Positions 29,205 to 51,982 of a stretch of DNA of 64,000 nt are shown one piece after another. The notes beneath the pieces are model-generated. The model had not been told where the DNA came from. It did no database searches and was given only the letters and a program-made list of their open reading frames with translations. The translations under genes and the position numbers were made by a program. The stretch comes from Branchiostoma floridae (lineage: Eukaryota; Chordata; Leptocardii; Amphioxiformes; Branchiostomatidae), in the NCBI RefSeq assembly GCF_000003815.2, contig NC_049986.1, positions 7,831,918-7,895,917 on the forward strand. The letters are read 5' to 3'. Numbering within the stretch: the stretch's first letter is position 1; every line of letters starts with the position of its first letter.

Positions 29205-29798
29205 TCCAGGCACAGAACTAGCAGCATTGTCTTGGATAGAACAACCTTGTCTTAGATGACCATCTTGAAAACATCTTAAGATGTCAGTGATCTAGAGGAC
29301 GTTTCTTGGCATTCTTGTCAAGACTGTCCGCGTGCGACAATGTTGCCCCGGTCGGTTTCTGCTCAACTCATTCTAACCTCCAGGGGATGACAGGGCCAGT
29401 GAACCGCCCACTACAACTGGTATGTCTTACAAATTGTTTTGCAACTTTTTTCTCGGTGTGCGATTCTAGGAGGGAGAATCCAAACAGAAACGTATAGGGG
29501 TGACGGGGATTTTTACAAAGATGAAAAGCGGGCGAAAAAATCCCTGAAAATAATCCAAGATTTTGCTAGGAGAAACGCACGCCCTCTGCACAGCTTTATG
29601 AAATTAAAAAAAAAAAGATCACCCATACAGACGATTCGGCAACCCTATTTGAGGACGCACTATTGTTGGTACTGTCCCCTTATTGGCTTCAGGAATCCAG
29701 TCACTACCATGACCCTGAGGTGTGGCACGTATAACTGAGAGAAACAGCGCTAGCGGGCAGAGAGAGATCAGTTGAAGCCAGCGCGCTCGCCTGACAAC

Positions 29799-32700
29799 AT
29801 GGCATGGGCGGTGTTTCTCCTGGTCGGCTCCGTTCTCGGTGTTACGTGTGCCGTCACAGCGCAACAGACGAACGTTACAGGTAAGTCTCCTGCCTTTATA
29901 GATTGGGTGACTTAAAACCTTTACTTAAATGCTGTTTCCCCATTTGGATAACCGATATGTCAACAAACATCTGATTCAGTAGGACAAGCCGGGCAGGCTG
30001 TACGTGTGAGTGAATCAGTGGGGTATTGCTAAGGCATGGGGTTGAAAATCGGAGCCCAAATCATTCTTTCCATAGCCTTCTTACTATGATGCATGACATT
30101 GTATAAAGCTCCCGGACCGAAGTCAGGTACACACCTGGGTAGGGTGCGGAAAGTAGTGTTTTAGTATTACTGGTAACCGCTGGTTCAGACTTTTCGCTTG
30201 CTAACAACAGTTGGCACCTAGGCTGGTAAAGTGCTCTTCCCAGGGCACTTTAGGCATTCAGGGGTTTCAAACCCAGTACCTCTGGGGCATCTTGTTCGGG
30301 TGTGATTAGCTGCTACGTTGTATGGAACACCTGCAATAATTTTGGGTATCTTGGGTATCGCCGCTGCACCATGTCGTCAAAATGGCATAATGTCTTTTTG
30401 TTGCGACTTTCTAACGAACTACTTCAAACCAGAAAATATATTCGGTCAAATAGAAGATAACCCTTTGAATTCTACTTTATTGGTACAGTAGCAATTGTCA
30501 CAACTTCATAACTTTTACAGTGACCTCTTCAAAGACAGAGCGAACGTTAACACTACATTTCTCTAACTTCTGCGAAATTTAACCCCCACGAACATTTCTC
30601 CTTTTAGAGTATGTCACATACCCAGAATACTGAAAATACTGTGATCCTACTTGTCTATCTATTGACCTGTAGTCGGAACCATTGATAGCGCTTGAGTTGA
30701 GCTGGTGACATTTACATGAAACTAGGGGGCTACAAGGGGTGCGATTGTTGACGGCGGTCGGTGACCTGCTAGCAGTCATCTGATAGGTCCTCGCTAGAAA
30801 TCACCAGAAATCTATTGTATGTCAGAAAGTGTATACGGGACGGGGTCATTAACCCCAGCCAGCGAGAGCTTGTGTAAAGACATGCTAGCTCTCTATAGGG
30901 AAGACCAGAGGAATGTAGAGCTTTCGAACCACTCGCAGATGGAGGGACGACCCATACTCTTTTCGATAACAGTGGCGGGTTCTTTAATGTGCTCGAGGTG
31001 TGCCTGTCATTAACATTTTCATTGTTAAAAACGCCACAAACGATTATCTTCCTACTAAGATCATCGAATCAATCTATTATAGAATACATGGGGCATTTCT
31101 AATTCATTTTCAACTTTCTTCAAAGAAGAAGTCAAACCCCGTAATAGTTACGTAGATTTATTATCATATTCTGTACCGTATATACATTCATCCACTTAAT
31201 ATTTGTACGTTAGAATTTAGATTATCTACTCATGTTCATCTGACTGAAGCGATGATAGTCGTGATAAGTGCATTTCCAAGGACACAAGATCAGTGGCATT
31301 TCAACGGATACGAACCTACAACCTCTGGGCTTACGTCGAACATCCTGCCGTTGCGCCAAACGACCCCTGACCCATGACCGTTTCAAAATCATACTGTAAA
31401 TGCAGAAACTTTCGCGTTGGTTTTATGTTCGCGGTTTTCGCGATGGCTTCTTCACCACGAATTCAAAACCACAGCGAACATTTTCCTTTTGTCTTTTGCT
31501 CGCGCCGACTACGGCACCCATTTTGCTACATGTACGTACAAAACATTGTCACTGTATTATAAAAATGAAATGGTTGAGGTGCTTGCCACAGTCAAGGCAT
31601 ACGAATGCATATTTCTTAGTTCGCGTTTATTCATTTCTCTACTGTGTAACACCATGACAGAAATGTAGTGATGTACTACGTATTCAGAGGGTAGATATGG
31701 TTGGATTAATGACAGTTGATCACACCAGCATTGTCAAAATAAAAATCGTTTGTAGCACAGTTGCTAAGTAAGTGTATTTAAAGTTCGGGGGATGGCGGTA
31801 CCGCGAACCCAAAACCAACGCGAACACTCCATTTTCCCGCTACCATGAAATTAAATCCCCGCGAGTAAATGCAACCGGTTGCTTAATGCTTGATCCGGTT
31901 GACTACACTTCTATTTGATGACCCCCTATTTTCACCCTTTTGTTACAGGTGACATCGGTTCCAGAACTATTGTTGTCGGCTCCATAGAGGTAACCTTTCG
32001 CTTTATTTCGAGTATATTTGGACAATAACATGATTCCAAAATGTTTCTTCATCTCATTTCAGCTGTTCACGGACTTTTACAATTATTGGATCGTATGATC
32101 GAACCCATCTTTTTTGTAGCCTCAACGTTTGGAATTCCAAATTACGGGTATCTAATATCGCCATGATTTTAAAGAAAGGCCAACTTTTAAAAAGAGGATA
32201 TGCTATGCAGCGCCGATGGGAAACACACTGAAAATATCCAGCCCCCAGGGATATATTGGAGCACGGCCGGGACCCGGGCTCATTTTAAACCCGGTACCTT
32301 GTACCTAATAGACACCGTGACCCACCCGTGGGGAATACCGAGGGGTAACCCCAGGTATCCGGCAGTCCAATGGGCCGGACAAATTTGTGGCTTCGGTGCC
32401 CGGCGGGGGGTTACATCCCTGACGGGCACCGGTGCAATTGGGACCTAAGCCTAGCAGAGCCTCAGTCTGTCTTGTCATCACGTCTAGGCAACTTTGATGT
32501 TTTCTCTTTTCAGCATCCCGGCTTCCTGTATAAGAGAGACGATGGCACGTACGAGGGTTTTCACAAGGACCTCCTGACGGAGCTGTCGGGCATCCTCGGG
32601 TATGACTTCATTATCAAGGAGCCGGACGACATGAGGTACGGTTACCTGCAGGACGATGGGACCTGGGCCGGCATGGTCGGCGAGCTCATCAGAGGGGTGA

Positions 32701-35700
32701 GGCAAACGCTATATACAACGATATAGACAGTTCATCCTCCTACGCAGTGTCTCCAACGGTTGTTAGCAAGCGCCATTTAGGATGTCATTTAGCTAGAGCC
32801 TTTGCTTGGAGACACTGCGTAGGAGGATGACATAGTTATTCAACCGGTGAACAATGCATGGGTTTGACTCCGGGTGTCTCTGACGTGTTTAGGCGCTTAA
32901 AGACACAGCCGGAGCCACAGCTCTTTCTTGGCTAGAGTTTGACGAACAGGGACGATGAAATGTAGAGTGGACTATGTTTATTCTATGCTTCTAGTCTACA
33001 TAAGGCGGAGTGCTACGAGTTAACTCACAGTGAGGTGTCGATAAGTAGTTCTGAACAAGGCCCCTAATAAGGTGCTAAGCATTTACCAGAAGCAGAAAAC
33101 ATCTGGATATACAACATTCCTCTTCCTTTTTTCTTTTCTTTTGGCAGGGCCTCTTTGCAGATTATGACCTTAGCATTACCTCTGTTCTTACAGGACATGG
33201 ACATGGCTCTGGGGTTGACCATCACCTCCGTGAGGGAAGCAGACATCGACTTCAGTACCGTCGTGTTGGACGAACGTCTGGAGATATTGGTCAAGAAGCC
33301 TTTAGCTGGAATACAGGTCGGTTATATGATCCAGGCTAAGGCCATGTTGACTTGATCATATCTCGACATATCTAAAAACTGATGTATGCGTGCGAATAAA
33401 AAAGTCCGAAATTATGAAATCTAAGTGGTCAGGAAGGTTTAACAGATGACTGAAAACACAGAATATAGTATACCGTTTGTACATTTCAGAGTATGGTTGA
33501 AAATTTTTATCTTATTTTTGGAAACGGCCGAAAATTGATGCGCGCGCGGATGTCATTCATATAATCAAATCAACTTTTTATTACCCATTCATTGACGAAA
33601 ACAGTCGTTGATCAGTCAAAAAGTTGTTAAAGTTCAATTTCTTTTGTTGGAAATTACAGTTCAACTTTATTCTGAAAACAGAATATCCGTGAATAGTTTC
33701 ACCGGGTTGGTGAGATACAGAATAACTAAATTCTTCGTTCACAACCATGTGTTATATTCAACTGACGTTTCGGTGACCGTCTGTGTAGGGCGATTCTGAC
33801 TGGTTCATGTTGCCCTCCAGCTATAGCTGTAGCTACATTATTAACTACCACTGTATATCTGTAAACACGTTACGTTTGGGTCCGCATCTGTAAGCAATGA
33901 CACCTATGTAGCTACATGCAGTGCAATGTGAACCAGTCAGAACTGCCCTGCAGACAGTCAATGAAATAAAGTTTTATTTGCAAAAATGATTAAAGGTAAA
34001 ATATATATATATGGTATTTTTCAGATCGCAGGCAGGGAATGGTGGAGAGCCGTCATGACTATCCCTGTATGGTTTATGGTCATGGCGTCGTTTCTCCTGA
34101 GCGGCATCGTCCTGTTCGTCATCATTCGGGTCAGTCCGTACGAGAATCGGGCGTACTCGGCAGAGGTCGGCGAGGCGAGCCGAATATCGACCTTCGGGCA
34201 CAGCCTGTGGATCTGCTTCAGCGCGATGAGCTGGCAGGGGGTGGACTACTCGCCACGCTCCATCTCCGGACGATTTCTCTTCGTCTTCTGGTTCGGCTTC
34301 GTCGTCTGGACGCTCATCCTTTGCACGGGCGCCATCGTGGGCCTCTTCATCCCCGGCCCGACCGCTTTCCCTATGGCTCCCTTGCAGTCGTTCGATGATC
34401 TGGCGGCAACCGACGAGATCCGCCCGGCATTCATCAGTGGTGGAGCGACCGAGTACACGTTCAAGAACTCTCCCATTGCATTCTACAACCGTCTTCATCA
34501 GAAGGCAATCCTGGTGAGTAATACGGATGAGGGGGTAAGGCTCGCCCGCGAGGGAGGGGTCGCCTTCTTCGCAGAGTCGTCGACGGCCCAATTCTACAGC
34601 AACCGGAAACCGTGCGATCTGATGTCCGTCCAGGAGGGCAACACCTTCACGGCAAGGCCCCAGGCCATCGGACTACAGGCGGGTTCCCCACTGCGAGAGC
34701 CGCTCAACAACGCCATCTCGCAGCTGAGGGAGAGCGGCAACCTGTACGCTCTGTACCAGAAATGGATCGTGAGTGTGACTTTTCCTTTCCCGGTTATGTT
34801 TAGGTCACAATTTTAAAAAGGCGCCCATTTGGACAGTTTACGGACTTTTTTTGCACTTTTGAGCGTGACCCCTACGGGGCCTACATCCCGACGGGTACCG
34901 GCGTAATTGTAACCTAAGCATTGTACAGGCTTTTCGTTTGACGTCATCTGTGCCAGTTTAGATTGTAGTGTACGCCCGTTAGGCATACAAAATGCTATTG
35001 GAATCAAAAGCCCGTATTCTTTAATATAGAAAGTTACAAGGACTTCAGACCATACACTGATTATTAATAACATGACACACAAACAACATCGTGTCTTAGC
35101 CTTAGGAATCTATCATGGATATTTTACGCTGATTGTGACCTATTTGATGAACAGCAATTATAGTTAAGTTAGATGCTTGTAAATAGTATAATGGACTGTC
35201 CGTTGTTCCAAGATACACATTGTAATTGTGTCTTTGTAGTTTGTGTATTCATGGTAAACGCTTGATAAGCCAACATAAAATTAATTGAAAACTAGACAGG
35301 TAGCATTTGAAATCAAATGTGACATGGTCTAGCCTAACACATTACTGCTCTGCTTACTCAAACTCATACACAATCATATACGGTGACCAGCCCCTCATTT
35401 CTGCCCTGCCACTTGCTACATAATGTAATCGAACACCACAGGTTGTCTGCTGCTTCACCAGTGACAATGATGACAGCCGTCTGATCCAAGGTCATTTACC
35501 TTATTTGTTTGGAGAAAAAGAAGAAGAGAAATAAGACATGAATTGTTGTGTTTGCAGTATTCTGAAAAGTGCCATCAGCCCGAACGTCGCCCCGAGGTTT
35601 CCTACGGCCATGTTAATCCAGTGGACTATCGGGACATCATGCCGATGTTCATCGAACTTGTGGTGGCCGCCATCTTGGCGCTGTGCATCATGGGAATCGA

Positions 35701-36066
35701 AGTAATATGGGATAAGCGCAGGTCTAAGGTAAGTTTAGAGCCTTCAGGTGTCTCAGCTGATTGCAAGAACGTCTCCTTTGATGCTGTTCGATTTTCATAT
35801 AGTTTCGAACAAAGATAATGTGATATATGTGTATGATTATTTTTATGTGCCCATTTCTCCAGTGATGAGCTATATAGTGACCCTTGATCTTAGCAGCTCC
35901 TTACTCGTAAATTGATTTTGTTACACAATTCATTTGTATCAACTGTGCAAGAGGCGGTACCTGGCGATATCTGACAAAACTGCACCCTTTCCCTTCGTAT
36001 GTCCTCCAGCCCACAAAGAAGACCGATGCAGCACCTTCCGGGAACTCAGCCGACACCAACGTCTGA
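29799..36066 (+). CDS. Ionotropic glutamate receptor-like channel subunit, copy A
   Basis: Seven exons: 29799-29880, 31949-31989, 32514-32696, 33194-33316, 34025-34768, 35558-35728, 36010-36066 (TGA); 466 residues with all phases and GT/AG sites consistent. Exon 1 is a signal peptide ('MAWAVFLLVGSVL'). Exon 3 has the S1 lobe ('YEGFHKDLL', 'DDGTWAGMVGELIRG'). Exon 4 has 'LTITSVRE', whose Thr and Arg match glutamate-binding residues. Exon 5 holds M1, the pore loop 'QGVDYSPRSISGR', M3 and the S2 lobe ('NRKPCDLM', 'KWI'). Exon 6 holds M4. There is no amino-terminal domain; the size is like vertebrate kainate-binding proteins. Oddities: Trp at the Q/R-site position, and the M3 SYTANLAAF signature replaced by 'LCTGAIVGL'. 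Candidate AATAAA at 36656. A membrane ligand-binding protein is certain by homology; channel activity is not. Confidence 0.92.
31250..31378 (-). repeat. tRNA-derived SINE remnant in copy A intron
   Basis: On the minus strand 'TTTGGCGCAACGGCAGGATG' (A box) and 'GGTTCGTATCCG' (B box), followed by degenerate body sequence. A related degenerate body lies at 30110-30310. Confidence 0.5.
32732..32830. mobile_element. Palindromic MITE present only in copy A
   Basis: 25-base perfect inverted repeats: left from 'TCATCCTCCTACGCAGTGTC' (32732), right ending '...GCGTAGGAGGATGA' (32830), around a 50-base centre. It lies just 3' of exon 3. The corresponding site in copy B (about 47085-47100) lacks it. Confidence 0.85.
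33339..33575. mobile_element. TIR MITE (GGCCATGTTGA family) in copy A intron 4
   Basis: Left end 'GGCCATGTTGACTTGATCAT', right end 'ATAATCAAATCAAC'. The same family is at 43182-43545 in a different intron of copy B. Copy B at the equivalent site continues without it. Confidence 0.6.
33787..33950. mobile_element. TIR MITE shared by both receptor copies (A side)
   Basis: Ends 'GGGCGATTCTGACTGGTTCA' and 'TGAACCAGTCAGAACTGCCC' are inverted repeats. It lies about 75 bases upstream of exon 5. The same element at the equivalent place in copy B is 45551-45696. Confidence 0.75.
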
Positions 36067-36964
36067 GCGGGAAAACCCATACAGCCAGTATTTTCCTGGA
36101 ATATCTGGTCGTCTGGGTGAAGAAAAAAATCTTTCAGGGCCGCTGACTGAGAACCATAAGATTTAAGAAAAGCGTAGAAGGATTCTTCCGAATGTACTTT
36201 GGGTATCACGAGGCCTGTTAACTTGGTGGAAAGTATCGACGGAGGTAACATATGCTATGAAGTCGACTTTTTTTACTACTCGTTGACGACTAGAATGAAT
36301 AGGCGGAATCTGATACAGATTCGGGCAGAATTTAACGGGACAGTGTGCCCCGCATTGAGATCATAAAATGTAGAATTTAAGTACTTGCTGTCCACCATGT
36401 GCACGTAGACGATCATATAGCAAAGGGTTAGACCTACCCTTTTGGGTATATGTAAAATGGCAAAATTTTGTGACTGTAGTTGCATATTTATATCCGAGTT
36501 TGGCAACTTCGAGGTTTATCCTCATGGTGAACAGTGCTAGTGCATTAGTCAGAAATGTGCAACTAACCTTCCTTAATCGTGAAGCTGTAGCTCTATTATA
36601 CCAATACAGAAGCTATCGGCGGATTCTTATAGTGATTAACACAGTGGTTAACGTTAATAAAGAACAAGTCTGATGATAACATTACAATCGATTATGTGCT
36701 ATTCACTTTTTTCACTTTATTATTATCTCAATGAAAAATTGAGACATTGTTTTGGGTGTGTCTGTGTGACTGTGTGACTGTGTGTCTGTATGTGTGTGTT
36801 ACTGTTTCCGGCTTTTTGTGGCCAGCCCAACTTTAGAACCTCTGGATGGATAGTAATGATTTGTTAAGTGGATAGAGGTTGGGAAGACGAAGGACTGGTA
36901 TGTGACTTTGGTACTGCAGCAGAACTTCACCATCAAAAAGGCTATTGAACTACTTTTTTACAAT

Positions 36965-38037
36965 AAAAAATCACTTAAAAGAAACCTACATTGGGGATAC
37001 TGAGAGATACATCACTTAAGACCAGGTTCCTTGAGCACAAACGCCCGAGTTTAACCACCTCAGAAGTTCCCAACACATACATATTGAGTCTCCGGGTCAT
37101 TCAGTCTCACTGGACAAAGTTAAAATCTTGGACACAGAACTAGAATTTTTCGCTAGACACAGAACTAGACTTTCGCGACGAGAAGCAGAACTCCAGTTAG
37201 AGGCTCTGAGGAAGATGACAGGTATCGAAACGTCAGCAGGTGAGAAAAAAATGGTTGTGTTGAACGAATGAATGAATATCTGGTTTATTAGCACCAAACA
37301 AGTGCGCATATACATGTACATATCATTGCAGCCATACAAGGCCGAATTGGTGTATGATAATGATACATTTGTTAAAAACTTCATTAAGACGCATTCAACA
37401 ATGATACAATATAAAGTAGTGTGCTATTTTTTAATCTTGATGATCTGCATTTAAACTGTGTGTAGTTGTCCTTTGTACGTAGTTCCCTGCCATGAACACT
37501 TCCCCGTTTTGGGGGTAACCAGTCAGGGAATAGTGGACACTTCGACACAGCTGCAGACAATGCAAATTTCAAGCAAAGACTACTTCGTCTCAGGTACAGG
37601 GAAGTAAGTGACAGCTGTTCTAAGGCTCTGTCGTAGCCAGCGTAGTGTCTACCTAGAATTATTCTGCACGTCCTCTTTTGTACAGATTCAATACACTTTG
37701 ACTGGAGAGCAGTGAGACCTGGATGCCACACTGGGCAAGCATAATCTAACACTGGCCTTACAAACGCCACAGATGTGTCAAAGAAAACTCTTATGTCCTA
37801 TCAAAGAAGCCATCTACATCAGAGCTTTACAACCATCCCTGAATAGAGACAGTGGGCGCCATAGACTTCCTGCAACCTATGATCCACTGTTCAATGAGTC
37901 TCGTGTTTTATTTGCATAACGTGACGTTACGACAGCACTGGATTGTTCATTCCTAGACAAAGACTGATGCTGTGCAGTCGAAAATTTGGGTGAGTCCAAT
38001 TTTTGTGTTGGAAATTACAGTTCAACTATTTCAAGAG
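36965..38037 (+). mobile_element. Penelope-like element fragment, interrupted by a LINE (arm A)
   Basis: 36965-37155 encodes part of a Penelope-like GIY-YIG endonuclease region ('YIGDTERYITLKTRFLEHKR'). It resumes at 37779 ('CATCTACATCAGAGCTTTAC') and runs through the 3' tail to 38037. The break is filled by 37156-37778. The uninterrupted equivalent is 41958-41558. Confidence 0.75.
37156..37778 (-). mobile_element. 5'-truncated LINE nested in the Penelope-like element
   Basis: 37770-37384 encodes the C-terminal part of a CR1/jockey-type reverse transcriptase ORF ('FVRPVLDYACPVWHPGLTA', 'IESVQKRTCRIILG'). A 3'UTR follows at about 37383-37262. The first about 100 bases (37156-37261) are other retroelement sequence containing 'GAAACGTCAGCAGG'. 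5' truncation is usual for LINEs. Confidence 0.75.
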
Positions 38038-38639
38038 GTGGCCGATGTAGCTATACGTGGCCGATGTAGGTGGCTCTTTTGCGGCGAGAACACAATCCCA
38101 AACGTGGTTAAGTTTGTACTCCTCCTCCTCCCTGTTCATCACTGGGGGTGACCCGATTAATACGAAGTATAGGGAAAAATGGAATTGTAAAATGGCCATG
38201 GCCATATTGTTGCAATTTATAATTTATTTGACCCTATTCTTATTTCAAGATAGCAGCAAATTCCGCTGGTGCGAGAATTTATCGAACCCCGCTGATAATT
38301 TTACGTGCGGCACGGACTAAGGTATTGCAACAAGTACAGCACTAATTTTGAGAGAAAAGATGGCATTTTAGCCATGGTGTGTCATGGAATTTGAAGTTAG
38401 CAATCCATTTTGGTGTCTCGGAACGCAGATAGAGGTTATTGATAGGGCGTTCCTGTCATTGAAGTGTTCTCCCCTTCACCGAGAAAGCAGCTATCTATTT
38501 ATATTTCAGCAATACCATAGGTATGGTAAAATATATTGTATTCGTAATTATATTCCAGCCATACCATAGGTGAATATATGGTATTCGTAATGTTTCTTCT
38601 TTCTTTTTTCTTTCTCCTGTCAAATCTTCAAATCGAATC

Positions 38640-39180
38640 AACTCCGTCGTTCCTGGACCGAATGACTTGAAATCTGGCACAAGGGTAGAGTGGACCAATA
38701 CCCTTAGGTTTTGTTTTTATTCTTTTTATATCTACCTTTAAAATGATTTTATTCATGTTTTCTGCAATGCAATTTTTATGTACATTTTGGCCCCCTGTAC
38801 CCTGGTATTACAGCCGAATGACCTCCAATTTGGTACAGAGGTGCCATAACCATATGCCCACAAAAATCCAATAACAGTTGTGGCATGTAGTACACCAAAA
38901 TGCCTAATTTTTACATTTTTTGCCTCCCCAAAAAGACATTTTTGGCTCCTATACCCTCATTTTACCACCAAACGACCTGAACTTTGGTCTGGAGTTCCGT
39001 CTACGTATGCGCACATGGACGCAATAACACTTTTGGCAAAAAAATACAGCGAAATGCTTAATTTGGGGATTTTTGGCCATTGTTTGACCAAAAACGTACG
39101 CCTTTGGCTCCTGTTCCCCGATCTTACAACCAAATGACCTAAATTTTGGTAAATAGGTGCACTGGATATTTATTCAAATG
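38640..39180. repeat. Degenerate tandem repeats in the inverted-duplication spacer
   Basis: A unit of roughly 150-180 bases recurs about four times, each with 'TTTTGGCTCCT', 'ACCAAATGACCT' and 'AATTTTGGT' blocks (near 38650, 38785, 38940, 39110). Units are strongly diverged. Confidence 0.55.
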
Positions 39181-39499
39181 ACCCATGTACAATGCTGGCA
39201 TAAACCACTAAAATGATATATTTGGGAATTTTGTTTGGTAATTTTCCACTGGCCAGAGGGATCAATGACCTCAAGGTCGTTGACCTCCCACATAAAGACA
39301 GCATGTGCACATGTCTATATACTAGTAACTAGCTTTCTATTGTAAGCTCCTCGCAATTCAGCCCCTGGCTGCAAAGAGTGAGTAGTCGGTCCACCGAATA
39401 ACAATAATAATAATAATAACTTGATTAAAGGGGCAACCAATTATGCAGCCTAAGTCAAGTAGTTTTTGGACTTTGGTGATTATGTCAAAGTGTTTCAGT

Positions 39500-39800
39500 G
39501 TGGTTATTTTTTGACTGGTCTAATTTGCAATTTTATATAGGGTGTGCTGGAAGAGTCCATTCTTACACGGAGGGGGGATTTTTTAAATCCAATTTTGGGA
39601 CTTTGGTGATTACGTCTAAGTCCAAATTTAGCGGATGTATTTTTGGACTGCACCACTTTGCATAGGGGCATCGCAAGAAGAGTCCATTCTTCACGGAGGG
39701 GGATGTTTTCAAATTTAGTTTTAGACGGGTGATGATTCAATATTCCATTTTTAGCGGAAGTGTTTTTGGACTGGTCTATTTTACCTAAAGTCTCATCAGT
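39500..39800 (-). repeat. Diverged tandem repeat with a shadow open frame
   Basis: 'AGAGTCCATTCTT' followed by 'CACGGAGGGGG' occurs near 39554 and 39679, with 'AGCGG(A)...TTTTTGGACTG' between. The minus open frame over it shows repeated 'QSKNTSAK', reflecting the DNA repeat; I do not regard it as a gene. Confidence 0.5.
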
Positions 39801-40093
39801 AGAAGTGACTATTAAACAAAAGTGTTTCATTTTTGCACATGGATGATTTTGGAATAGTCTATTGTTGCATGGGGAGAGAGATGGCTGAAATATGCTTTAT
39901 TTGCTCTCAAGCAAATGTCGGCCTTTCTATTGTTTAGATATGATTCTAACTCCTTTGTTATCAACTCACCTAAGACAGCAAAATTTGGTGACAATACGTA
40001 AGTTATATCATACATATACAAAAAGATTTATTTTGTTTGTAAATGTGAATACCCACTGATCATGAAAAGGCAAGTAACAAAAATGTCGGCTAC

Positions 40094-40504
40094 CTGCAGA
40101 CGTGTATGTTCCGTAACGCTTCAAATCCTCGCCTTCTCCGTACGTGTGTGTGTAGATGCTCTTGGGACTTGTCATGACGGACACGCCCGCGGGAACAGCC
40201 CTGATGGACAGGAGGGGATTGGGTTGGCGGCCCGCTGGTTTCCACCTCCCCCTGAGGTAACGCCTGCCGCTACCCGGCACCCCATGTAAAGACGGCGGCA
40301 GATCTTCATCCTTGATCGTGTAGTACGCTCTCTCTGCTTCTGCGTACGTGCCCGAAGAAGTTTCTTGGCCTTGTTGCCGCTGGTCAGAGGCGTCTTTGGG
40401 CTGATGGACAGGAGGGTTGGGGCGGCGGTCCGCTGGATTGGCCGCTGCCGGGGCCCGAGAAAGGGGACCGGGTTGGCTCTGCTTGCTCGGGCATTTGCAC
40501 CGTA
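40094..40504 (-). CDS. Candidate internal exon, unidentified protein with Tyr-rich tail motifs
   Basis: A 411-base segment on the minus strand is open in one frame between a possible acceptor (GCATAG before 40504) and a possible donor (GCAG/GTAGCC after 40094), with compatible phases (2 in, 1 out). It encodes a Cys-containing start ('RCKCPSKQSQ'), a Pro/Ala-rich stretch with an internal repeat ('PADRRPNP', 'PAGRQPNP'), 'ERAYYTIKDEDLPP' and 'SIYTHTYGEGEDLKRYGTY'. Tyrosine spacing resembles receptor cytoplasmic tails, but no domain is recognised. It is GC-rich against AT-rich surroundings and lies in the spacer between the inverted arms. Neighbouring exons were not found. Confidence 0.42.
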
Positions 40505-41041
40505 CTATGCAGGTTTAGTGTATAACTGTACGTGAATGATACCTTAATTAGTCTGACGACGCAAGACGACATTTACGTTTGTTTGGGATGATGACGTGGC
40601 ATTAGGTGGTACGAATGACAGTTTGTTTCTGGCGACGCCTCAGGAGTTAGCCTGATAGTATAGTATGCGTCCGATTGCAAGAATTCACAAAATCGTACCG
40701 GAATTTCTGGAATTTTTTCCGCACATGCGTAGTCGCATCATCTGAGTATTCCCTGGGCAATTTATTTTGAAGCAATTGTCATGTGATCTATTGATATGGA
40801 AAAGACAAGGCCTTTGCTGCTATGTATCTAACATTTCCCATTTCCGTCAATTTGTTTCTTTTAGCAAAGGAAACACTGTCATAATCTATGTTTAAAATAC
40901 GCTTATTTATTTTATGGCAAATGAGAATAATTTGTTGACGTTATAGATTTTAATCCCACTATGTTGCTGATAAGAGCAAACTTAAGAACTAGGAACACTA
41001 TGCTTATGTTTTAAATACATTTTCGTTTCACTTTTAAAGAT

Positions 41042-41045
<4 letters not shown>

Positions 41046-41103
<58 letters not shown>
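41046..41103. repeat. (TA)n microsatellite
   Basis: About 29 uninterrupted TA units. Confidence 0.98.
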
Positions 41104-41106
<3 letters not shown>

Positions 41107-41194
41107 AACAGAAGGGGTTTCTTGTACGTAGACTTATTGTGTGATAAAAGTAATCTTTTGTATGAGGGTTTTCATTTATTTGTGTGCTTTGTAT

Positions 41195-41515
41195 CGGGTT
41201 TAGGGGCGGGTATCGGTGCGGTACAAAACCGGGTTTTCTTCTTGGACCGGTCCGGAAAAAGCGGACATGAAAAAAATCATTGACCGGATGTTTGACCCAT
41301 TTAAAAATGTACCGGCAGCCCTTCACGTGTTTTGGGGCTTAAATGTCCAAGCAAATAACAAAAAGCAAAGTAGAGTAGAGTTGATAGTCATTTTCATCAA
41401 GTTTCCAGAGTCAGACTTGGTCTAAAATAGGGACGGTTAGAGTTGTTTGCATGAAAATATGATTTTAAAACGCCAATGGACGTCGGGTACTCCACCTAAT
41501 AGAATCCTTTGTTAG
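41195..41515. mobile_element. GGTCCGG TIR element, inverted diverged copy
   Basis: Reverse-orientation relative of 16965-17393, sharing 'TTGGACCGGTCCGG', 'GTTTTGGGGCTTAAATG'-type and 'TTTTAAAACGCCAAT' blocks. Confidence 0.5.
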
Positions 41516-41557
41516 CAAATTGGACAATTGTTTTGAGTAAAATGCGTTCACAGATAC

Positions 41558-41958
41558 CTCTTGAAATAGTTGAACTGTAATTTCCAACACAAAAATTGGA
41601 CTCACCCAAATTTTCGACTACACAGTATCAGTCTTTGTCAAGGAATAAACAATCCACTGCTGTCGTAACGTCACGTTATGCAAATAAAACACGTGACTCA
41701 TTGAGCAGTGGATCATAGGTTGCAGGAAGGAAGTCTATGGCACCAACCGTTACTATTCAAGGATAGATGTAAAGCTCTGATGTAGATGGCTTCTTTGATC
41801 CTCTAGCGAAAAAGTCTAGTTCTGTGTCCAAGATTTTTACTTTGTCCAGTGAGACGGAATGACCCGGAGACTCAATATGTATGTGTTGGGAAACTTCGAA
41901 GGTGGTTGAAGTGATCTATCTCTCAGTCTCCCCAATGTAGGTTTCTTTAAAGTGATTT
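41558..41958 (-). mobile_element. Penelope-like element fragment, uninterrupted (arm B)
   Basis: Reading right to left: the GIY-YIG-side block 'YIGETER'-like (41945 region), 'HIESPGHSVSLDKVKILDTE', then 'KEAIYIRALHLSLNS', a stop and the AT-rich tail to 41558. It matches 36965-37155 plus 37779-38037. Confidence 0.75.
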
Positions 41959-42908
41959 CTTTAGTGTTAAAAGTAGTTCAATAGCCTTTTTGATGTTCTT
42001 TTGGTGAAGTTCTGCTGCAGTACCAAAGTCACATACCAGAGAGCCAAAAATCGACCTTGGCCTTTGTCTTCCTTGGCCTCTATCCACTTACCAAATAACA
42101 TTGCAATCCATCCAGAGGTTCTAAAGTTGTGCTGACCACAACTATCAGGAAAAACAAACACACGGACACACACAAATAACAATATCTCCATTTGGAGATC
42201 ATGGAGATAATAATGAAGTGAAAAAAAATGAATAGCACATAACGGATTGTTATGTTCTCATCAGACTTGTTTTATTATTAACGTCACGTACATATGCATG
42301 GATCTATGTGTTAATCACTATAAGAATCCACCGATAGCTTCTGTATTGGTAAAATTGAACTACAGCTTCACGATTAAAGTTACTTACACGTACATGATTT
42401 GTGACTATGACACTAGCACTGTCCACCATGATACTGCTGGCATGACATGAGGAAACCTTGGAGTTGCCAGACAAACTTTGATCTAATATGCAACTGCAGT
42501 CAGAAAAATTTGCCATTATACACATACTCAAAAGGATAGGTCAAACTCTTAGTATAATCGTCTACGTGTACATGGTGGACAGTACGTACGTAAATTCTCC
42601 ATTTTATAATCTCAATGCGGAGCACACTGTCCCGTTTATTCTGCCCGAATCTGTATCAGATTCAGCCTATTCATTTGAATTCTAGCCGAGTGTCGACTTC
42701 ATAACACATTTAAGCTCCGTCGATAATTTTCACCAAATTAACTGGCCTCGTGATACCCAATGTACATCCAGAAGAATCCTTATACACAATGTACAAAGAA
42801 TTTCTACGCTTTTCTTAAATCTTATGGTTCTCAGCCAGCGGCCCTGAATTTTTTTCACCCCGATGACCAGATATTCCAGGAAAATACTGCCTGTATGGGT
42901 TTTCCCGC

Positions 42909-45900
42909 TCAGACGTTTGTGTCGGCTGAGTTCCCGGAAGGTGCTGCATCGGTCTTCTTTGTGGGCTGGAGGATATATGAAGGAAAAGGGTGCAGTTTTG
43001 TGAGATATCGCCAGGTGCTGCCACTTATACAGTTGCAGATAATTTGAAGTTCGCTTGGATCAACATGTTTTCTGCCTATCATGTGACGGCTGTCAGACTT
43101 TGGCAGTGAGTTTAGTTTACAATCTACCAAACGGACTTCTGCTTAGCGATTACCCATGCCCCATTCAGAATCGCATCACTAGGGCCATGTTGATTTGATT
43201 ATTTGGATGACATCCCCCGGGAACCCCAAAACATATGCAAGCGTGCGAAAAAAAAAACGTTTGGCAAAAAAAAAGTTGCCTTTGATACGAACTTATAGTG
43301 GTTAGGAAGGTTGAAGAAATGACTAAACACAGAGAGTATGGCACACCAAATTATAGATTCTTCATTTTTCCTTTTCACATATTCTCTATGACCTTGGAAG
43401 CGACATTGACATTTGTGATTTAGGTATACTTTTTCCAATTTTTTCCCCAATCTACCGTACATTACTCATTCTATAGCAACATTTTCTTTCAAAACGAAAT
43501 TTGATGCTATACAGATGCTAACCCTATAACCAAATCAACATGGCTTATATCCAGGAAGGACCATGACTTCAATGGATGAATCAAATAGTGTAACAAAGTC
43601 CATTTACGAGCAAAGAGCTGCAATGATCAAGGGTCACTATAGCTCAATCAATGGAGAAAATGGCACATAGAATAATCATATATTACATACATCACATTAT
43701 CTTTGTTTGAAACTATATTAAATCGAACAGCATCAAAGAAGACATTCTTGCCATCAGCTGAGACACCTGAAGGCTCTAAACTTACCTTAGACGTGCGCTT
43801 ATCCCATATTACTTCGATTCCCATGATGCACAGCGCCAAGATGGCGGCCACCACGAGCTCGACGAACATCGGCATGATGTCCCGATAGTCCACTGGATTA
43901 ACATGGCTGTAGGAAACCTCGGGGTGACGTTCTGGTCGAGGGCACTTTTCAGAATACTGCGAACACAACAATTCATCATTTATGTTTAATAGAACCTAAT
44001 ATTTGGGGGGGGGGGGCGTGTCTTATTTCTCTTCTTCTCCAAACAAATATAAAGGTCAAAGACCTTGGATCAGACGGCTGTCATTATTGTCACTGGTGAA
44101 GCAGCAGACGCCCTGTGGTGTTCGATTACATTATACAGCAAGTGGCAGGACATAATTTGAATTGGTGCTAGTCACCGTATTTATGATTGATTCAATCTAT
44201 TTTATGTTGGCTTATCAAACGTTAACCATGAATGCACAAACTAGAAAGACACAATTACAACGTGTATCTTGGAGCAACAGACAGTTCATTGTATTATCTA
44301 AAAGCATATATTCTAATTGCTGATGATCAGATAGGTAACAATCAGCATAAAATATTCATGATAGATTCCAAAGACACAATGTTTTTTTTTATTTATTTAT
44401 TGAACTTATAGAGTGGCCCCTTCAGCCCTGTTGTTTGTGTGTCAGGTCAGTAATAATCAGTGTATTGTCTGAAATCATTGTGAATTTCTTATCATTATTT
44501 TACAAAAAAGAATACGGGATTTGAGCATTTTGTGTGCTTAACGGACATACATTATAATCTAAACTGGCGCAGATGAATTCAAAGGAAAAGCCTGTATATG
44601 CGCCGGCCCCTAGGGGTCATGCTCGAAAATGAAAAAAAAAAAAAACAGCTTTTAAACTGTCCAGCTGAGCGCTTCTTCCAAATTGTGACCTAAGCATAAC
44701 TGGTCATAGAAAAGTCCCGCAACACTTACAATCCATTTCTGGTACAGAAGGTTCAGCTTGCCGCTCTCCTTCAGCTGCAAGATGGCGTTGTTGAGCGGCT
44801 TTCTCAGTGGGGAATCCGCCTGCAGTCCGATGGCCTGGGACCTGGGATCTGTGAAGGTGTTGCCCTCCTTGACGGACATCAGATCGCACGGCTTCCGATT
44901 GCTGTAGAATTGGGCCGTCGACGACTCTGCGATGAAGGCGACCCCTCCCTCGCGGGCCAGCCTTACTCCCTCATCCGTATTACTCACCAATGTTGCCTTC
45001 TGATGAATACGGTTGTAGGAATCAATGGGAGAGCTCTTGAACGTGAGATCGACCCTTCCAAACCTGATGAAGACTGGACGGATCTCGTCGGTTGCCGCCA
45101 GATCATCGAACGACTGCACGGGGGCCATGGGGGAAGCGATCGGGCCGGGGATGAAGAGGCCCACGATGGCGCCAGTACAAAGGATGAGCGTCCAGACGAC
45201 GAAGCCGAACCAGAAGACGAAGAGAAATCGTCCGGAGACGGAGCGGGGCGAGTAGTCCACCCCCTGCCAGCTCATGGCGCTGTAGCAGATCCACAGGCTG
45301 TGCCCGAAGGTCGACAGTCGGCTCGCCTCGCCGACCTCTGCCGAGTACGCCCGATTCTCGTACGGACTGACCCGAATGATGACGAACAGGACGATGCCGC
45401 TCAGGAGGAACGACGCAATGACCATAAACCATACAGGCATAGTCATGACGGCTCTCCACCATTCCCTGCCTGCGATCTGAAAAATACCATTTTACCTTTA
45501 ATCATTTTTTGGAAATAAAACTAAATTAATTGACCGTCTGTTATCTTCCCCAGGGCAGTTCTGACTGGTTCGAACTGCATGTAGCTATATAGGTGTCGTT
45601 GCTTACAGATGCGGACCCAAACGTAAAGTGTTTACAGACATACAACGAGCTACAGCTATAGCTGTAGGGCAACATGAACCAGTCAGAATCGCCCTACACA
45701 GACGGTCACCGAAACGTCAGTCGAAAAAACAACACTTAGCTGTGTATAATGGAGATAGTTATTCAGCGTCCTACCAACCCGATGAAACGGGTATACTGTT
45801 TATCTTGCCAGAATGTTTTAGGCTTGTACGTCTGTCTGTGAACAGCATAACTCGAGAAGCCTTGGATGGATCCTGATGACATTTGGTTGGTTGCAATCGG

Positions 45901-48900
45901 TAGGGTTGGGAAAACGAAGGTCAAATTTGATAGTCGACCCCCTAGCGGCTTCCTAAGGTACTGCAGCTGAACTTCCATTTTCGATAACTCTTTGACTGAT
46001 CGACTCCTGTCTTCGTCAAGGAATGGATAATCAACTGCTTCGGTCACGTGATGTAGATAGCACGTCTGAAGGTCGTATCTCACTGGACTTGCTGCGGCAC
46101 TGCGGGGTTCGTTCACTGCAGCACTGTTGTGTTATTTTCGATGATTTTTCAGATATTGCGTAGTACGTAAAACTATGACTTAGAAGAAAAAACGCACAAA
46201 ACGTAAGAAAATGCGGTCTTAAATTTATCTCTGAAATTCGATGAGTTATCTTTCGAACCCCGCACTGCCGCACCGGTGCCCCACGTGCAGTGAGATACCG
46301 CCTTGACTATGTACATGCAAGTTGCGTAAGTTGCCTTCTACCAACACAGATGAACTTTCAAGTCAAGATACTCTTTTTTGTTTATCTTAGCCTGGATCAT
46401 ACATGTATAAACCGACCTGCATTCCAGGCAAAGGCTTCTTGACCAATATCTCCAGACGTTCGTCTAACACGACGGTACTGAAGTCGATCACTGTCTCCCT
46501 TGGGGAGGCTATGGTCAACCCCAGAGCTATATCCATGTCCTGTAAGAACAGAGGCAATGCTAAGGTCATAAGTTGCAAGAGGCCCTGCCAAAAAAAGAAA
46601 GAAAGAGGGGTCTCGGATATCCATATGCTGTCATCAGGCAAATATGCCTAGCACCTATGGGCTTTAGTCAGAACTACTTTTAGACACCTCACTCTGAGTA
46701 AGCTCGTAGCTCTCCGCCATATCACATGTAAACTAGAAGGATAGAATAAACATAGTCCACTATACATGTCATCGTCCCTGGTCGTCAATCCCTAACCAAG
46801 AAATAGTTACATTGAGCCAGAGGACACAACACAACAGGTAGCTTTTGTCGCTTTCGTGTGCTCGACGCCTACATGCATGTGGCCCCGTGGGGTCCGCCCT
46901 CAAGATTTTTTTTTCAAACTTGCAATTAAAATCAACCCGGGACTCGACAACAGATAGACACCGTAACCCGATAGTGAAAACACCACGGGTACTAACGACC
47001 TATATTTCTGTACAATCAGAGCTTTGGCTCCGCCTAAAACACGTCAAAGACACCCGGAGTCAAACCCATGCTTTGTTCACCGGTTGCCCAACTGTGTCTA
47101 TAGCGTTGTAAATAGCGTTTGCCTCACCCCTCTGATGAGCTCGCCGACCATGCCGACCCAGGTCCCATCGTCCTGCAGGTAACCGTACCTCTGGTCGTCC
47201 GGCTCCTTGATAATGAAGTCATACCCGAGGATTGCCGTCAGCTCCGTCAGGAGGTCCTTGTGAAACCCCTCGTACGTGCCATCGTCTCTCTTATTCAGGA
47301 ACCCGGGGTACTGAAGGGAGGAAATATTTAGTAAGGAGGTCAAAGTTGCCTAGACTGTTATGTAGTCTCTAATGGTGGAGACAAGACAGACTGACGATAT
47401 ATGTAAAGGTGGACTCTCACTGCACTTGGGGCACGGGTGCGTCACTGCGGGGTTTGGTCACTGCGGCACTGTTTTGTTATTTTTGCGATATTTAATAATT
47501 TAGATTAAGGGTAATACGTAAAAGCATGACTTAGAAGACCACGAATTGAACAAACGGAAGAAAATTCGTTCATTATCTCTGAAATTAGTTGAGTCATCTA
47601 CGAACCCTGCAGTGTCGTACCGGTGCCCCAAGTGCAGTTAGAGTCCACCTTGAAGCTATTTATCTGCACTTTCTGTCGTGACCCCAACGTAGCTCTGAGT
47701 TAAAATCAACCCGGGGCCCAGTGACGTCTATAGACGCCGTGACCTAATCGTGGAAAAACCGAGAGGTACCCCGGCCTGTTGTACCTGGCAGTCTTCCGGG
47801 ACGAATTCGTGGCTTTTAGGGGGCACCGATGCATTAAAGGGGTCCTATACTCCAGAAGGGAATGTTTTTTCCCAATAGATTAGGTATCAGTGAACCCGCT
47901 ATCAGCAGTCTTTTTGCAGAATTTTGCTTGTGGTGAATTGCGCAAGGTACGTTTGTAGATCACACTAAACCCATGCAGACCCTTCCCATCCATTTCCTAT
48001 ACGTATAGACACTTCCTTCACCGTGAATATTTTTGGCATGAATGAGATGTGTACTCCAAGACGGTTAATTGTTCACAATACATCAAACCTTTGCACAATA
48101 TAGAATGCTTTTTGATGTACGCGAGACTAGTGGGTATTCTCTGTCAGTCAGGTTCTTTTTGCGTAGATAAGTGTCATAGTCTGTATAGACTGACTGACAT
48201 AGATATATGAAGTAGCATGCATGTTTTACTTCCAAAAACTAATATCTATCGGAAAATAACACGCTCTTGTGGAGTTTAGGACTCTACGACGGCCACATTA
48301 AAAACAGCGTTTGAACACCTAGGATATCTTCAGTGTGTGTTCCACCTGAGATGCTTAATTAGCAGATCTTCTTTAAGTTGGTCTTTCTTTCATTGTGGCG
48401 ATATTTAGATACCCGGCGGAATGGTAAAAGTTGACGCTACAGAAAAGCTGGGTTTCGATCATACGATCCAATGAAAGCTCGTGAACAGCTGAAATGAGAT
48501 GGAAAAACATTCTGGAATCATGTTATGGACCAGATACGTATCAGTATACTCGAAATAAAGCGAAACGTTACCTCTATGGAGCCGACAACAATAGTTCTGG
48601 AACGGATGTCACCTGTAACAAAAGAGTAAAAACAGGGGGTCATCAAATAGCAGTGTAGATTCTCAAGCAACCCCAGGTCACTGTGAAAAACGTGAACGTC
48701 AATGAAGTTGTGACCATTCCTACAATAAAGTAGAATTCAAAGAGCTATCTTCTATTGGTATTTTCTGGTTTGAAGTAGATCGTACGAAATTCGCTGTGCC
48801 ATTCTGACGACATGGTGCAGTGGCAATACTCAAAATTACAAGTTTGGAGACCTCACATCTCCATGAAATGTTCTGATTATGCAAATGACTTCTACATAAT

Positions 48901-50087
48901 ATATGCTTACTTATGTACACCTATAACAAACTGACACAAGTCAAAATGTCGGCATTCGAATCATTCACTGTACCAATTAGAAGAATTATGGACCTTTTGC
49001 ATCGATTATGCAAATTAAACTCATTTACATAATTGGCATCTACCAATATTCCACCTGCCACAAACAACGTATATAACATGTACTTGAATCCTATAATGGA
49101 AAACACGGCAAATATAGATTTTCCTCATTAAATATGCAAGTTAAATGGCAATTTGCATGATTTGCAATTCATTATGTACATCTCTGTCAAAGCTACCTGC
49201 TAAATATCATGAATATCCGTCGGTCCTTTGTTCAGTTATTGTCCTTGGAAAGTTTTGACAAAAATGCCCCTGCAGTTCCAGAGCAAGCTGCTAGGACTTT
49301 CCGCACTCCACTTAAGCGTGAAAATGGGTACCTGACTTCGATCCGGGAGCTATATATATCAAAAAGGCTATGGAAAGAGTGGTTTGGTCTCCGCCTTCCA
49401 GCGCCACGCCTTAGTAAAGCCCACTTTACAAATCAAGAATTTAACTACGCCGACTTTTCGGCACTTTCGGCTGGAGTATGACCGGCGTTTGGCCGATTAC
49501 GCGGGCTTCGGACGATTGTGAGCAGCTCGGCTTGCGTTGGGGGCACTTCCAACAGAGTGTAAATTCAGCGATGCCTCGGCGACAACTTTTTATGAGATTT
49601 TGCATTGGTCTATCGCAAACTTCCTGTTAATATTATTTTTCTGGGTGCCCGTCGACCCCACGTAGACCTACATGTTTCCAAAAACTCAGAAGTTGAAGTT
49701 GAAACAAATGTTAGCTTTTTACAGGGTTAGTCCATTTCTAATTCAACTGTGTCCAAGAGATGCTACAATATCATGGGGTATATATAATCATTAGCGTTGG
49801 ATAGACGTCGCCCGATGTTGAAATTCAGCTAGCTCTGACCAATTTGGCCGGCGTTCGCATGAATTGAAAATCCACTGGTTCACTCACCGTACGGCCTGCC
49901 CAGGTTGTCCTGATGTTTGTTGACTTAACTATTATCCAAATGAGAAAATGATATACAGGGAAGGTTTTTAGCCATCAAATCTATAAAGACAGGCAAGAGA
50001 CGTACCTGTACCGTTCGTCAGTTGCGCAGTGACGGCACAGGTAAAACTGAGAACGGACCCGACCAAGAGAAACACCGCCCATGCCAT
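42909..50087 (-). CDS. Ionotropic glutamate receptor-like channel subunit, copy B
   Basis: Seven exons, read right to left: 50087-50006, 48612-48572, 47310-47128, 46539-46417, 45476-44730, 43956-43786, 42965-42909 (TGA); 467 residues, with the same intron positions and phases as copy A. It shares the signal peptide, S1 'DDGTWVGMVGELIRG', 'LTIASPRE', the pore 'QGVDYSPRSVSGR', the divergent M3 'LCTGAIVGL', M4 and the tail 'PTKKTDAAPSGNSADTNV'. Exon 5 is one codon longer ('FTDPRSQA' for 'FTARPQA'). The S2 segment that contacts the ligand alpha-carboxyl in AMPA receptors (Gly-Ser-Thr) is 'GRV' here and 'GAT' in copy A, so ligand preference may have changed or been lost. The reading frame is intact. 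A candidate AATAAA lies at 42276-42271. Confidence 0.91.
43182..43545. mobile_element. TIR MITE (GGCCATGTTGA family) in copy B intron 6
   Basis: Ends 'GGCCATGTTGATTTGATTAT' and 'ATAACCAAATCAACATGGC' are inverted repeats. Same family as 33339-33575 but at a non-equivalent site. Confidence 0.78.
45551..45696. mobile_element. TIR MITE shared by both receptor copies (B side)
   Basis: Partner of 33787-33950 at the equivalent position before exon 5. Ends 'CAGGGCAGTTCTGACTGGTT' and 'AACCAGTCAGAATCGCCCT'. Confidence 0.75.
46069..46304. mobile_element. TIR MITE private to copy B intron 4
   Basis: Left end 'AAGGTCGTATCTCACT' plus 'GCGGCACTGCGGGGTT', right end mirrored as 'CGCACTGCCGCACCGG' and 'GTGAGATACCGCCTT'. 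Same family as 47406-47651 and 4570-4642. Confidence 0.82.
47406..47651. mobile_element. TIR MITE private to copy B intron 2
   Basis: Ends 'AAGGTGGACTCTCACTGCAC' and 'GTGCAGTTAGAGTCCACCTT' are inverted repeats, 246 bases overall. Not seen at the equivalent place upstream of exon 3 in copy A. Confidence 0.85.
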
Positions 50088-51229
50088 GTTGTCAGACGTC
50101 AAATCTTTCTCTATCCGCTGTGTCTCTCAGTTATACGTGCCACACCTCAAGGACACGGTTGTACTGGATTCCTGAAGCCAAGAAGCGGACGGTACCAACA
50201 ATAATTTGTCACCAGTATGGGTGATCTTTTTTTTCGATTTCATGAAGCTGTGCAGAGGTCATGTGTTTCTTATCATCATTGGACGACAGCGAAAACTTTT
50301 GGTTTCTTTTCAGGGATTTATTCGCCCGCTTTTCATTTTTGTAGCATATTCTATCACCCCTTCCTTTTCTGTGTGGATTCTCCCTCCTAGAATCGCACCG
50401 AAAAAAGCTGTCAAACAATTTGTAAGGCATACCAGTTGTAGTGGGAGGTTCAAGTCGTGTCAGCCACAGGGGGTTAGAATGAGTTGAGCAGAAACCGACC
50501 GGGGCATGTCACACGTGGACAGCTAGCTCGGGATCGGAAGTCTTGACAAGAATGCCAAGAAACGTCCTATAGATCACTGACATCTTAAGATGTTTTCAAG
50601 ATGGTCATCTAAGATAAGAACTGCTGGTTGTTCTATCCATTGGACAATGCGGCTAGCTCTGTGCCTGGCTTTTCTTGTACCCAATAGTATCACGTTGGCT
50701 GTATAATGTGACATATTGGACTTCTTATCAAACTAATCATATGTAAGGCTACAGCAAGTAAATTTGATGGATGACATCAGCGCGCCCTTGAATTTTCGCC
50801 TGATCTAAAGTACTTTTTTTTCCACTCGAGAAAGTACAAAATAGGAAAATATATCGTGTGGTAGCCTTGATAGTACTTGTAGAAGTGTTAATAGTGAGGA
50901 ACATGTAGCCATGACCGTAGCTGTAGGATAACAAAAAAAAGACAGAATTATGCTATCCTGCCAAATGAAGCCATTTGGAGACCAAAATTAAATTTCTTGG
51001 CAGTTCAATACATGTACCTTTTAACTTGCTAGGTTCGAACAATCCATCCAGCCATATCATCCAGCCACATAGCCCGAGCTATCCTGATAAACCACAAACA
51101 CTATTATTACAAAAGCCACCAAAGACATAGCCTTCTGGGCAAAGGTAAAAAACACCATTTCCTTATCGTGTAATAAGATTCCCGGTTTGATTTTAGTTGT
51201 GAGTTTGAAAAATGAATCTTGAGGCCCAA

Positions 51230-51765: not shown

Positions 51766-51878
51766 AATTTCCAAACAGGAAATCGGAATGACCTTAATTG
51801 TCGACTATTGTCTTTGTCATGGAATGGGCAATCCACTACTTCCACGACGTCACGTCATGTAGATAGCACGTATCTTTA

Positions 51879-51982
51879 CAGAGGGTCGTAAATGCCAGAT
51901 AACCTGTGTACATCCGTGCTCACCGTCCATCGCTGAACAGAGACCGGGGCGACACGTGTTATCTGGCATTTACGACCCTCTG
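51879..51982. mobile_element. Palindrome, 25-base arms
   Basis: 'CAGAGGGTCGTAAATGCCAG' (plus ATAAC) at 51879-51903 is mirrored exactly at 51958-51982. It separates minus-oriented (51760-51878) and plus-oriented (51983-52115) Penelope-like tail remnants. Confidence 0.8.

Follow-up and report, generated by a model that had tools for sequence, protein, structure and literature searches.

Two intact genes for truncated ionotropic glutamate receptors (iGluRs), here called A and B, face one another tail to tail within a 64,000-nucleotide stretch of Branchiostoma floridae DNA (GCF_000003815.2, NC_049986.1, positions 7,831,918-7,895,917 of the forward strand). We refer to this whole stretch as the window, and positions are given in its own numbering. 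The A/B locus is confirmed as a genuine inverted segmental duplication, as an earlier sequence-only reading had proposed, and several features can now be added to that description. First, neither gene encodes the amino-terminal domain. Second, the gate motif in M3 is replaced in a family of four members (A, B and two relatives, C2a and C2b, on another contig), and a tryptophan occupies the Q/R position. Third, synonymous divergence between C2b and the other three members drops abruptly in a pore-gate core, and only there. Fourth, the amino acid replacements between A and B, including altered pocket residues in B, cluster in a pocket segment of S2. Finally, a decayed third copy of the unit adjoins the pair. 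We consider it probable, although well short of certain, that these observations reflect the duplication of a truncated receptor whose pore segment has been shared by gene conversion while the ligand pockets of the copies diverged.

Self-BLAST of the window recovers the inverted arms at the expected place, as collinear minus-strand matches that run from 29206/50668 inward to 38039/41556. These define arm A (29206-38039, plus orientation, 8.83 kb) and arm B (41556-50668, minus orientation, 9.11 kb), with a 3.5-kb spacer (38040-41555) between the innermost inverted matches, across which the 3' ends of the two arms face each other. The seven exons, their intron phases and the 5' and 3' flanks of the genes are common to both arms, exactly as had been read from the sequence. 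A fragment of one repeat family is common to both inner ends (37053-37157 plus 37800-38039 in A; 41556-41907 in B), and it has relatives elsewhere in the window at 9711-9974, 22287-22398 and 25225-25520. The short frames of this repeat, and those of a 642-bp insert found only in arm A (37158-37799), have no Pfam match, so we leave the repeat unnamed. Because the insert splits the shared repeat, the arms have changed since the duplication, and the introns outside the locally alignable parts likewise carry many copy-specific insertions in each arm. The spacer holds an open frame of 168 amino acids (40008-40514, minus strand) without a Pfam match.

The decayed third copy of the receptor unit (51177-52382, plus strand) lies immediately outside arm B and is oriented like arm A. 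It contains an exon-4 remnant at 51526-51657 that has neither an intact frame nor a donor site, and a protein search found no other exon of this copy in the window. With this decayed neighbor counted, three copies or more seem to have been present at the locus at some time in the past.

A duplicated appearance could also arise as an assembly artefact, if arm B were in fact the alternative haplotype of arm A, entered into the assembly in the opposite direction. Heterozygosity is high in lancelets, given as 3.2-4.2% in sequenced species (PMC12500494, PMC12862219), and the published B. floridae assembly is described as merging separately assembled haplotypes (PMC7269912). Nevertheless, we regard this artefact as very improbable, because the synonymous divergence (dS) between A and B of 0.138 and the non-coding divergence (K) of 0.130 are about three to four times the reported heterozygosity. 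Moreover, many large insertions distinguish the arms, the remnant third copy adjoins arm B, and the opposite orientation occurs within ungapped sequence: there is no N in the window between 1399 and 62614, an interval that includes both arms and the spacer.

Both genes have seven exons, canonical splice sites and full frames, and they encode proteins of 466 (A) and 467 (B) amino acids, of which 411 residues are identical. The intron between exons 1 and 2 is in phase 1 and all others are in phase 0. Gene A lies on the plus strand. Its exon 1 (29799-29880) carries the start codon and what appears by inspection to be a hydrophobic, signal-peptide-like leader; exon 2 (31949-31989) encodes the first strand of S1; exon 3 (32514-32696) encodes the S1 ligand-binding half; and exon 4 (33194-33316) encodes S1 sequence that includes R116, the equivalent of Arg485. 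Exon 5 (34025-34768) encodes M1, the pore loop, M3 with its altered gate and most of S2, followed by the end of S2 and M4 in exon 6 (35558-35728) and a short tail with the stop codon in exon 7 (36010-36066). The exons of gene B, on the minus strand, are at 50006-50087, 48572-48612, 47128-47310, 46417-46539, 44730-45476, 43786-43956 and 42909-42965 in order from 1 to 7, with the derived ligand-pocket segment (residues 281-305) in exon 5. Over the whole gene, 55 of 466 codons change residue between A and B, and the ratio of nonsynonymous to synonymous divergence (dN/dS) is 0.45 at a dS of 0.138 (Fisher p 1.2e-4). The genes are thus under net purifying selection, in agreement with the claim of the sequence-only reading that both copies are intact. 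Long antisense open frames over exon 5 (33974-34672, minus strand; 44700-45518, plus strand) are probably a by-product of GC-rich third positions.

The affiliation of these proteins with iGluRs is clear from domain and structure matches. Protein A matches PF10613 (3.5e-20) and PF00060 (3.7e-18), B gives similar results, and both proteins score above the curated cut-offs; each therefore combines the bipartite ligand-binding domain and ligand-gated channel domain of the superfamily. There are 371 PDB matches to A, and the 60 listed are all named glutamate receptors, of the AMPA or kainate class wherever a class is named; the best (E 1.2e-48) extends over residues 25-448. Identity of A to GluA4 is about one third (139 of 413 aligned residues). 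In this alignment the equivalents of Arg485 and Glu705 are R116 and E327 in A and are the same in B, so that both proteins have the Arg485 and acidic 705 of amino-acid-binding iGluRs. Both residues are also kept in C2a, and C2b has methionine at 705.

In the A and B gene models the leader exon leads straight into S1, and the amino-terminal domain is absent. An exon-wise genome search for this domain (PF01094; 115 of 143 candidates scored, with matches at 90 or more places genome-wide) gave no match in the window or at C2:0.97-1.06 Mb, the region of the two relatives. As an argument for truncation, a missing PF01094 match nearby is weak evidence when taken alone, since 30 of 57 other places in the genome that encode M3 also have none within 60 kb upstream on the same strand. 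Because only the other 27 of these 57 places have such a match, we have dropped the notion that lack of the domain is unique to the A/B family. In the many other receptor genes that show no PF01094 match over that distance, the domain may be missing, divergent or finely split.

The genome searched comprises 513,431,437 bases in 431 contigs, and only the best candidates were scored, so that the family count is a minimum: at least four members, with A and B on contig C8 and C2a and C2b on C2. Identities in this search were 77% in exon 5 for C2a and 68% then 46% for C2b, and the nine remaining matches were either long at 26-29% or short at 34-42%. C2a is in minus orientation, with exons between 1006431 and 990673 that, where they were read, keep the seven-exon layout of A and B; exons 1-5 and 7 are open, and exon 6 is partly inside a 100-base assembly gap. 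C2b (1036665-1050269, plus orientation) has extra introns in exons 3 and 5, and its located exons have open frames; its exon 2 and a last exon were not located in the genome search. The two genes are head to head in opposite orientation about 30 kb apart, with a 10.6-kb assembly gap between them. Non-coding K over the alignable parts is 0.182 for A-C2a, 0.238 for B-C2a and 0.130 for A-B; because the last value is the lowest, C2a is usable as an outgroup to A and B. We rejected the idea that A, B and C2a are copies of a discrete mobile unit sharing one 5' boundary, because the similarity of C2a to B runs past the arm end. Pattern searches of bacterial and viral contigs gave 230 and 19 matches, respectively, and no relative was confirmed among them.

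The most conspicuous departure of these genes from other iGluRs is in M3, where the SYTANLAAF motif, called essential for gating (PMC6307864), is replaced in A by LCTGAIVGLF. The gate stretch reads LCTGAIVGL in A and B, LCTGAIVGI in C2a and LCTGSIAGF in C2b, which gives the common pattern LCTG[AS]I[VA]G, and alignment to GluA4 places a tryptophan (W213) at the Q/R position of A and B. Two of the nine gate residues match in this alignment, although small gaps inside M3 make the exact pairing there uncertain. When the best nine-residue match to SYTANLAAF at any offset is scored instead, three residues match in A and B (outside M3), two in C2a and three in C2b. Sequences with fewer than four of the nine residues were left out of the final iGluR phylogeny in PMC6307864, and all four family members would consequently be excluded from it. 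A motif filter of this type can conceal receptors from a reference classification.

We scored M3 across the genome in the same manner. PF00060 is found at 87 places, of which 68 were read (A, B, C2a, C2b and 64 others) and 19 were left out because the match ends before M3 or overlaps a place already read. At least six of the nine gate residues are retained in 58 of the 64 other stretches, and none of the 64 has anything similar to the LCTG-type motif. The remaining six retain fewer than six residues, so altered gates are not exclusive to the A/B/C2 family. Four of these six are at C15:4.48-4.53 Mb and retain 5, 5, 4 and 3 residues, all starting SYTG; the other two, at C9:10612424 and C17:14668818, are under the Pfam cut-off and retain 3 residues each. 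The C15 places form a cluster of receptor M3 pieces (C15:4480627-4534870) in which the gate starts SYTG and then departs from the motif, and seven receptor M3 exons on one strand form a tandem cluster of about 72 kb at C9:11081029-11153243. Among the places read, 66 that bear M3 are over the cut-off, some of which may be fragments; 24 iGluR subunits are reported for B. lanceolatum (PMC6307864).

A codon alignment of the four genes reveals that C2b is distant from the others everywhere except across a run of 79 codons that begins at the end of M1 and reaches the gate. In this core, C2b has a dS of 0.124 to A, 0.154 to B and 0.093 to C2a. The corresponding values are 1.87, 2.63 and 1.32 in S1; 0.50, 0.63 and 0.48 at the start of M1 (27 codons); 1.31, 1.31 and 1.00 in the first part of S2; and 0.90, 0.94 and 0.92 in its second part; in M4 they are 1.70 against A and 1.24 against B. 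The contrast between the core and S1, S2 and M4 is strong against A, B and C2a (Fisher p 2.8e-12, 4.6e-11 and 4.1e-11; C2a without M4). The core is contained in a stretch of exon 5 of gene A (34067-34425, plus strand) that matches C2b at about 85% DNA identity. An abrupt drop in synonymous divergence between paralogues at the edges of a segment, as found here, is the pattern expected from gene conversion.

The core is best read, from these patterns of divergence, as a product of ectopic gene conversion, most clearly between C2a and C2b. A different explanation would be that strong constraint on synonymous sites, or codon bias, holds pore divergence low with no conversion at all. Two comparisons lead us to favor conversion. 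First, the ratio of dS in the core to dS in the rest of the gene is 0.09-0.11 against C2b, and a roughly tenfold constraint should also mark the A-B pair, where the ratio is 0.52 (0.083 vs 0.160, p 0.18). Second, over codons 137-186 the older pair C2a-C2b differs at 1 of 150 bases, whereas the younger pair A-B differs at 6 (A-C2a 5, A-C2b 6, B-C2a 4, B-C2b 5). The abrupt edges of the core likewise weigh against constraint. If the A-B rate is applied to the core of A and C2b, 25.9 synonymous changes are predicted and 6.5 are seen (P 8e-8 at the central rate). For A and C2a, core dS is 0.064 vs 0.267 elsewhere (ratio 0.24, p 0.006).

Several observations weigh against conversion, however, and they keep constraint in our view an unlikely rather than a negligible explanation. 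The 150-base window was picked after viewing the divergence track, so its p value of 3e-5 is too low. When the full core is taken, 13 of 237 bases differ between C2a and C2b and 8 of 237 between A and B (316 and 75 of 801 elsewhere), and the evidence against fixed constraint is then marginal (p 0.034 by a binomial test and 0.048 by Fisher's test, or 0.064 with third positions only). The probability for the core of A and C2b rises to 0.15 if the A-B rate is set to its lower limit. The core dS of A-B is itself below the rest of the gene, and among core sites at which one gene alone departs, those of C2b remain the most frequent (9 of 24 variable sites). GC content at third codon positions is highest in the core (0.86-0.91 vs 0.60-0.84 in other parts), which fits GC-biased conversion and codon bias alike. 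Conversion across chromosomes (C2-C8), though likely, is less certain than exchange between C2a and C2b. Furthermore, if the core has been converted, then the shared gate does not represent four independent conservations. We found no clean tree conflict over the whole core, such conflict being seen only in the 150-base window chosen afterwards, and since the core is young by synonymous sites we have withdrawn gate conservation as proof of deep-time selection.

Conversion between arms A and B themselves is a separate matter, and the suggestion in the sequence-only reading that the inverted pair might be such a case was not supported. Over the locally alignable parts of the arms, non-coding divergence is 0.119 (0.130 by the Kimura two-parameter measure, 3983 sites) and coding divergence is 0.074 (1401 sites). 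Along the arms the non-coding divergence varies rather little (dispersion 1.38, permutation p 0.013). No identical run is longer than one of 90 bp in coding sequence, which falls between the 95% limit of 79 and the 99% limit of 93, and the longest in non-coding columns alone is 64 bp, below the 95% limit of 70. For these reasons we do not claim conversion between the arms. Divergence is lowest in the innermost repeat (15 of 240 vs 459 of 3743 differences, p 0.004, from rounded rates), a pattern that could be due to conversion or to some other cause. If the mutation rate given for B. floridae applies (5.89e-9 per base per generation; PMC12862219), then a K of 0.130-0.138 would date the duplication to about 9.7-13.3 million generations ago over the confidence interval of the rate. 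The introduction of that paper prints the rate as 5.89^-10, and its abstract, results and discussion give 5.89 x 10^-9. An estimate of 28.2 Ma has been published for the divergence of B. belcheri from two other lancelets (PMC5430900), so some lancelet species may not have the pair.

By part, dN/dS between A and B is 0.30 in M1-M3, where dN (0.022) is the lowest among the parts compared, and 0.90 in the first part of S2. The replacements cluster at residues 281-305, where 11 of 25 residues differ (permutation p 0.0044), a segment that spans the equivalents of GluA2 653-655. At these positions A has Gly653, Ala654 and Thr655, and B has Gly653, Arg654 and Val655. Under rules set out in PMC6307864, Gly653 with Thr655 indicates glutamate and Gly653 with a non-polar residue at 655 marks a glycine candidate. 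The pocket residues of A would therefore point to glutamate, and B is, by prediction only, a glycine candidate. Because C2a keeps Thr655, the loss of this residue is assigned to the B branch. With C2a as outgroup, the 48 A/B differences in the gap-free part of exons 1-5 divide into 18 changes on B, 12 on A and 18 unpolarised; for residues 276-305 there are 5 changes on B, 1 on A and 6 unpolarised. GluA4 is uninformative as a distant outgroup (43 of 52 A/B differences match neither copy). Two points argue for caution about a change of ligand in B. This gene has evolved faster overall (53 polarised nucleotide changes vs 30 in A, p 0.015), so relaxed constraint may account for part of the change in its pocket, and a dN/dS of 0.90 in the pocket segment does not demonstrate positive selection.

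Perhaps, then, the A, B and C2 genes are simply decaying, with gate and pocket altered through loss of function. Such decay would fit the lost gate motif, the dN/dS of 0.90 in the B pocket segment, the lost Glu705 equivalent in C2b and the presence of a remnant copy next door. It would not readily account for the intact frames and splice sites of A and B, the open exons 1-5 and 7 of C2a, the open frames in those C2b exons that were found, the dN/dS of 0.30 in M1-M3 between A and B, or the retention of the Arg485 and Glu705 equivalents by A, B and C2a. Decay is consequently an improbable explanation.

If the genes are functional, then A and B may form ligand-gated cation channels. Other receptors that lack the amino-terminal domain build tetramers through their ligand-binding and membrane domains, and by analogy A and B could do the same. 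Closure of S1 and S2 on the ligand would pull on M3, and the altered gate would presumably open by a modified M3 movement; the small residues in the new motif may permit a leaky or differently coupled gate. Ectopic conversion would hold the pore segment alike among the members while the ligand domains diverge, with A predicted to keep an amino-acid-type pocket and B either taking on another ligand through its re-shaped pocket or now serving as a partner subunit. Some receptors of the iGluR superfamily are known for absent or weak currents, and these proteins might similarly be non-conducting ligand binders or silent partner subunits instead of channels. The replaced gate motif and the tryptophan at the Q/R position would suit this possibility, whereas the dN of 0.022 in M1-M3 weighs against it. 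We find non-conducting proteins a doubtful but serious contender. Because its members have a replaced gate but retain frames and pore, the family is a natural test case for the ways in which such channels can open, and it may separate two processes within one gene, namely pore copying between loci and divergence of the ligand pocket.

Among the solved structures listed, AMPA and kainate receptors (AKDF subfamily) are nearest to A and B by sequence. The resemblance extends to the order of S1, M1, pore loop, M3, S2 and M4 and to the Arg485 and Glu705 equivalents; the differences are the missing amino-terminal domain, the replaced gate motif and Q/R residue and a very short tail. In architecture the nearest proteins are the vertebrate kainate-binding proteins, which have about 450 residues and are without most of the amino-terminal domain, but which, unlike A and B, keep the canonical gate. 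The Phi class is reported from cephalochordates and has some members with a less conserved gate (Ramos-Vicente et al., 2018; PMC6307864). Its members are described as having no glutamine at Q586, which is also true of A and B with their tryptophan, but that study required at least four of nine gate residues, more than the A/B/C2 genes possess. The chemosensory Ionotropic Receptors identified throughout Protostomia (Croset et al., 2010; PMC2924276) are duplicated, and most lack the amino-terminal domain, as do A and B. They are described as being under weaker purifying selection than synaptic receptors; unlike them, A and B come from outside the protostomes in which that report places the group, and keep the amino-acid backbone residues. 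Variant Ionotropic Receptors have been proposed in an echinoderm, in a starfish study (PMC6267866).

A parallel for the conversion itself is found in newt sodium-channel paralogues, where non-allelic gene conversion is reported to spread resistance changes (PMC8476164). In both cases a functional segment would be converted among ion-channel paralogues, but the newt exchange spreads resistance changes, whereas here the pore-gate segment of a ligand-gated channel apparently stays uniform among the copies. Our literature search, with most subscription papers and all supplements outside its reach, returned no account of the A/B/C2 family or of conversion among amphioxus glutamate receptors. A speculative and rather unlikely extension of the sequence comparisons would be that these genes constitute an unclassified chordate ionotropic receptor family missed by the gate filter. 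One pore-gate cassette with a new gate would have been passed among its paralogues by ectopic conversion while the pockets diversified, in parallel with the protostome Ionotropic Receptors, and B would represent a recent change of ligand.

The window has no Rfam match at the gathering score and no tRNA. A non-LTR retrotransposon remnant at 120-3601 (minus strand) has endonuclease and reverse transcriptase domains and is broken by a 100-base gap. Tandem-like repeats are present at 56847-57218, and a frame for a rhodopsin-family receptor (PF00001, 2.6e-27) is located at 57109-58485 on the minus strand.

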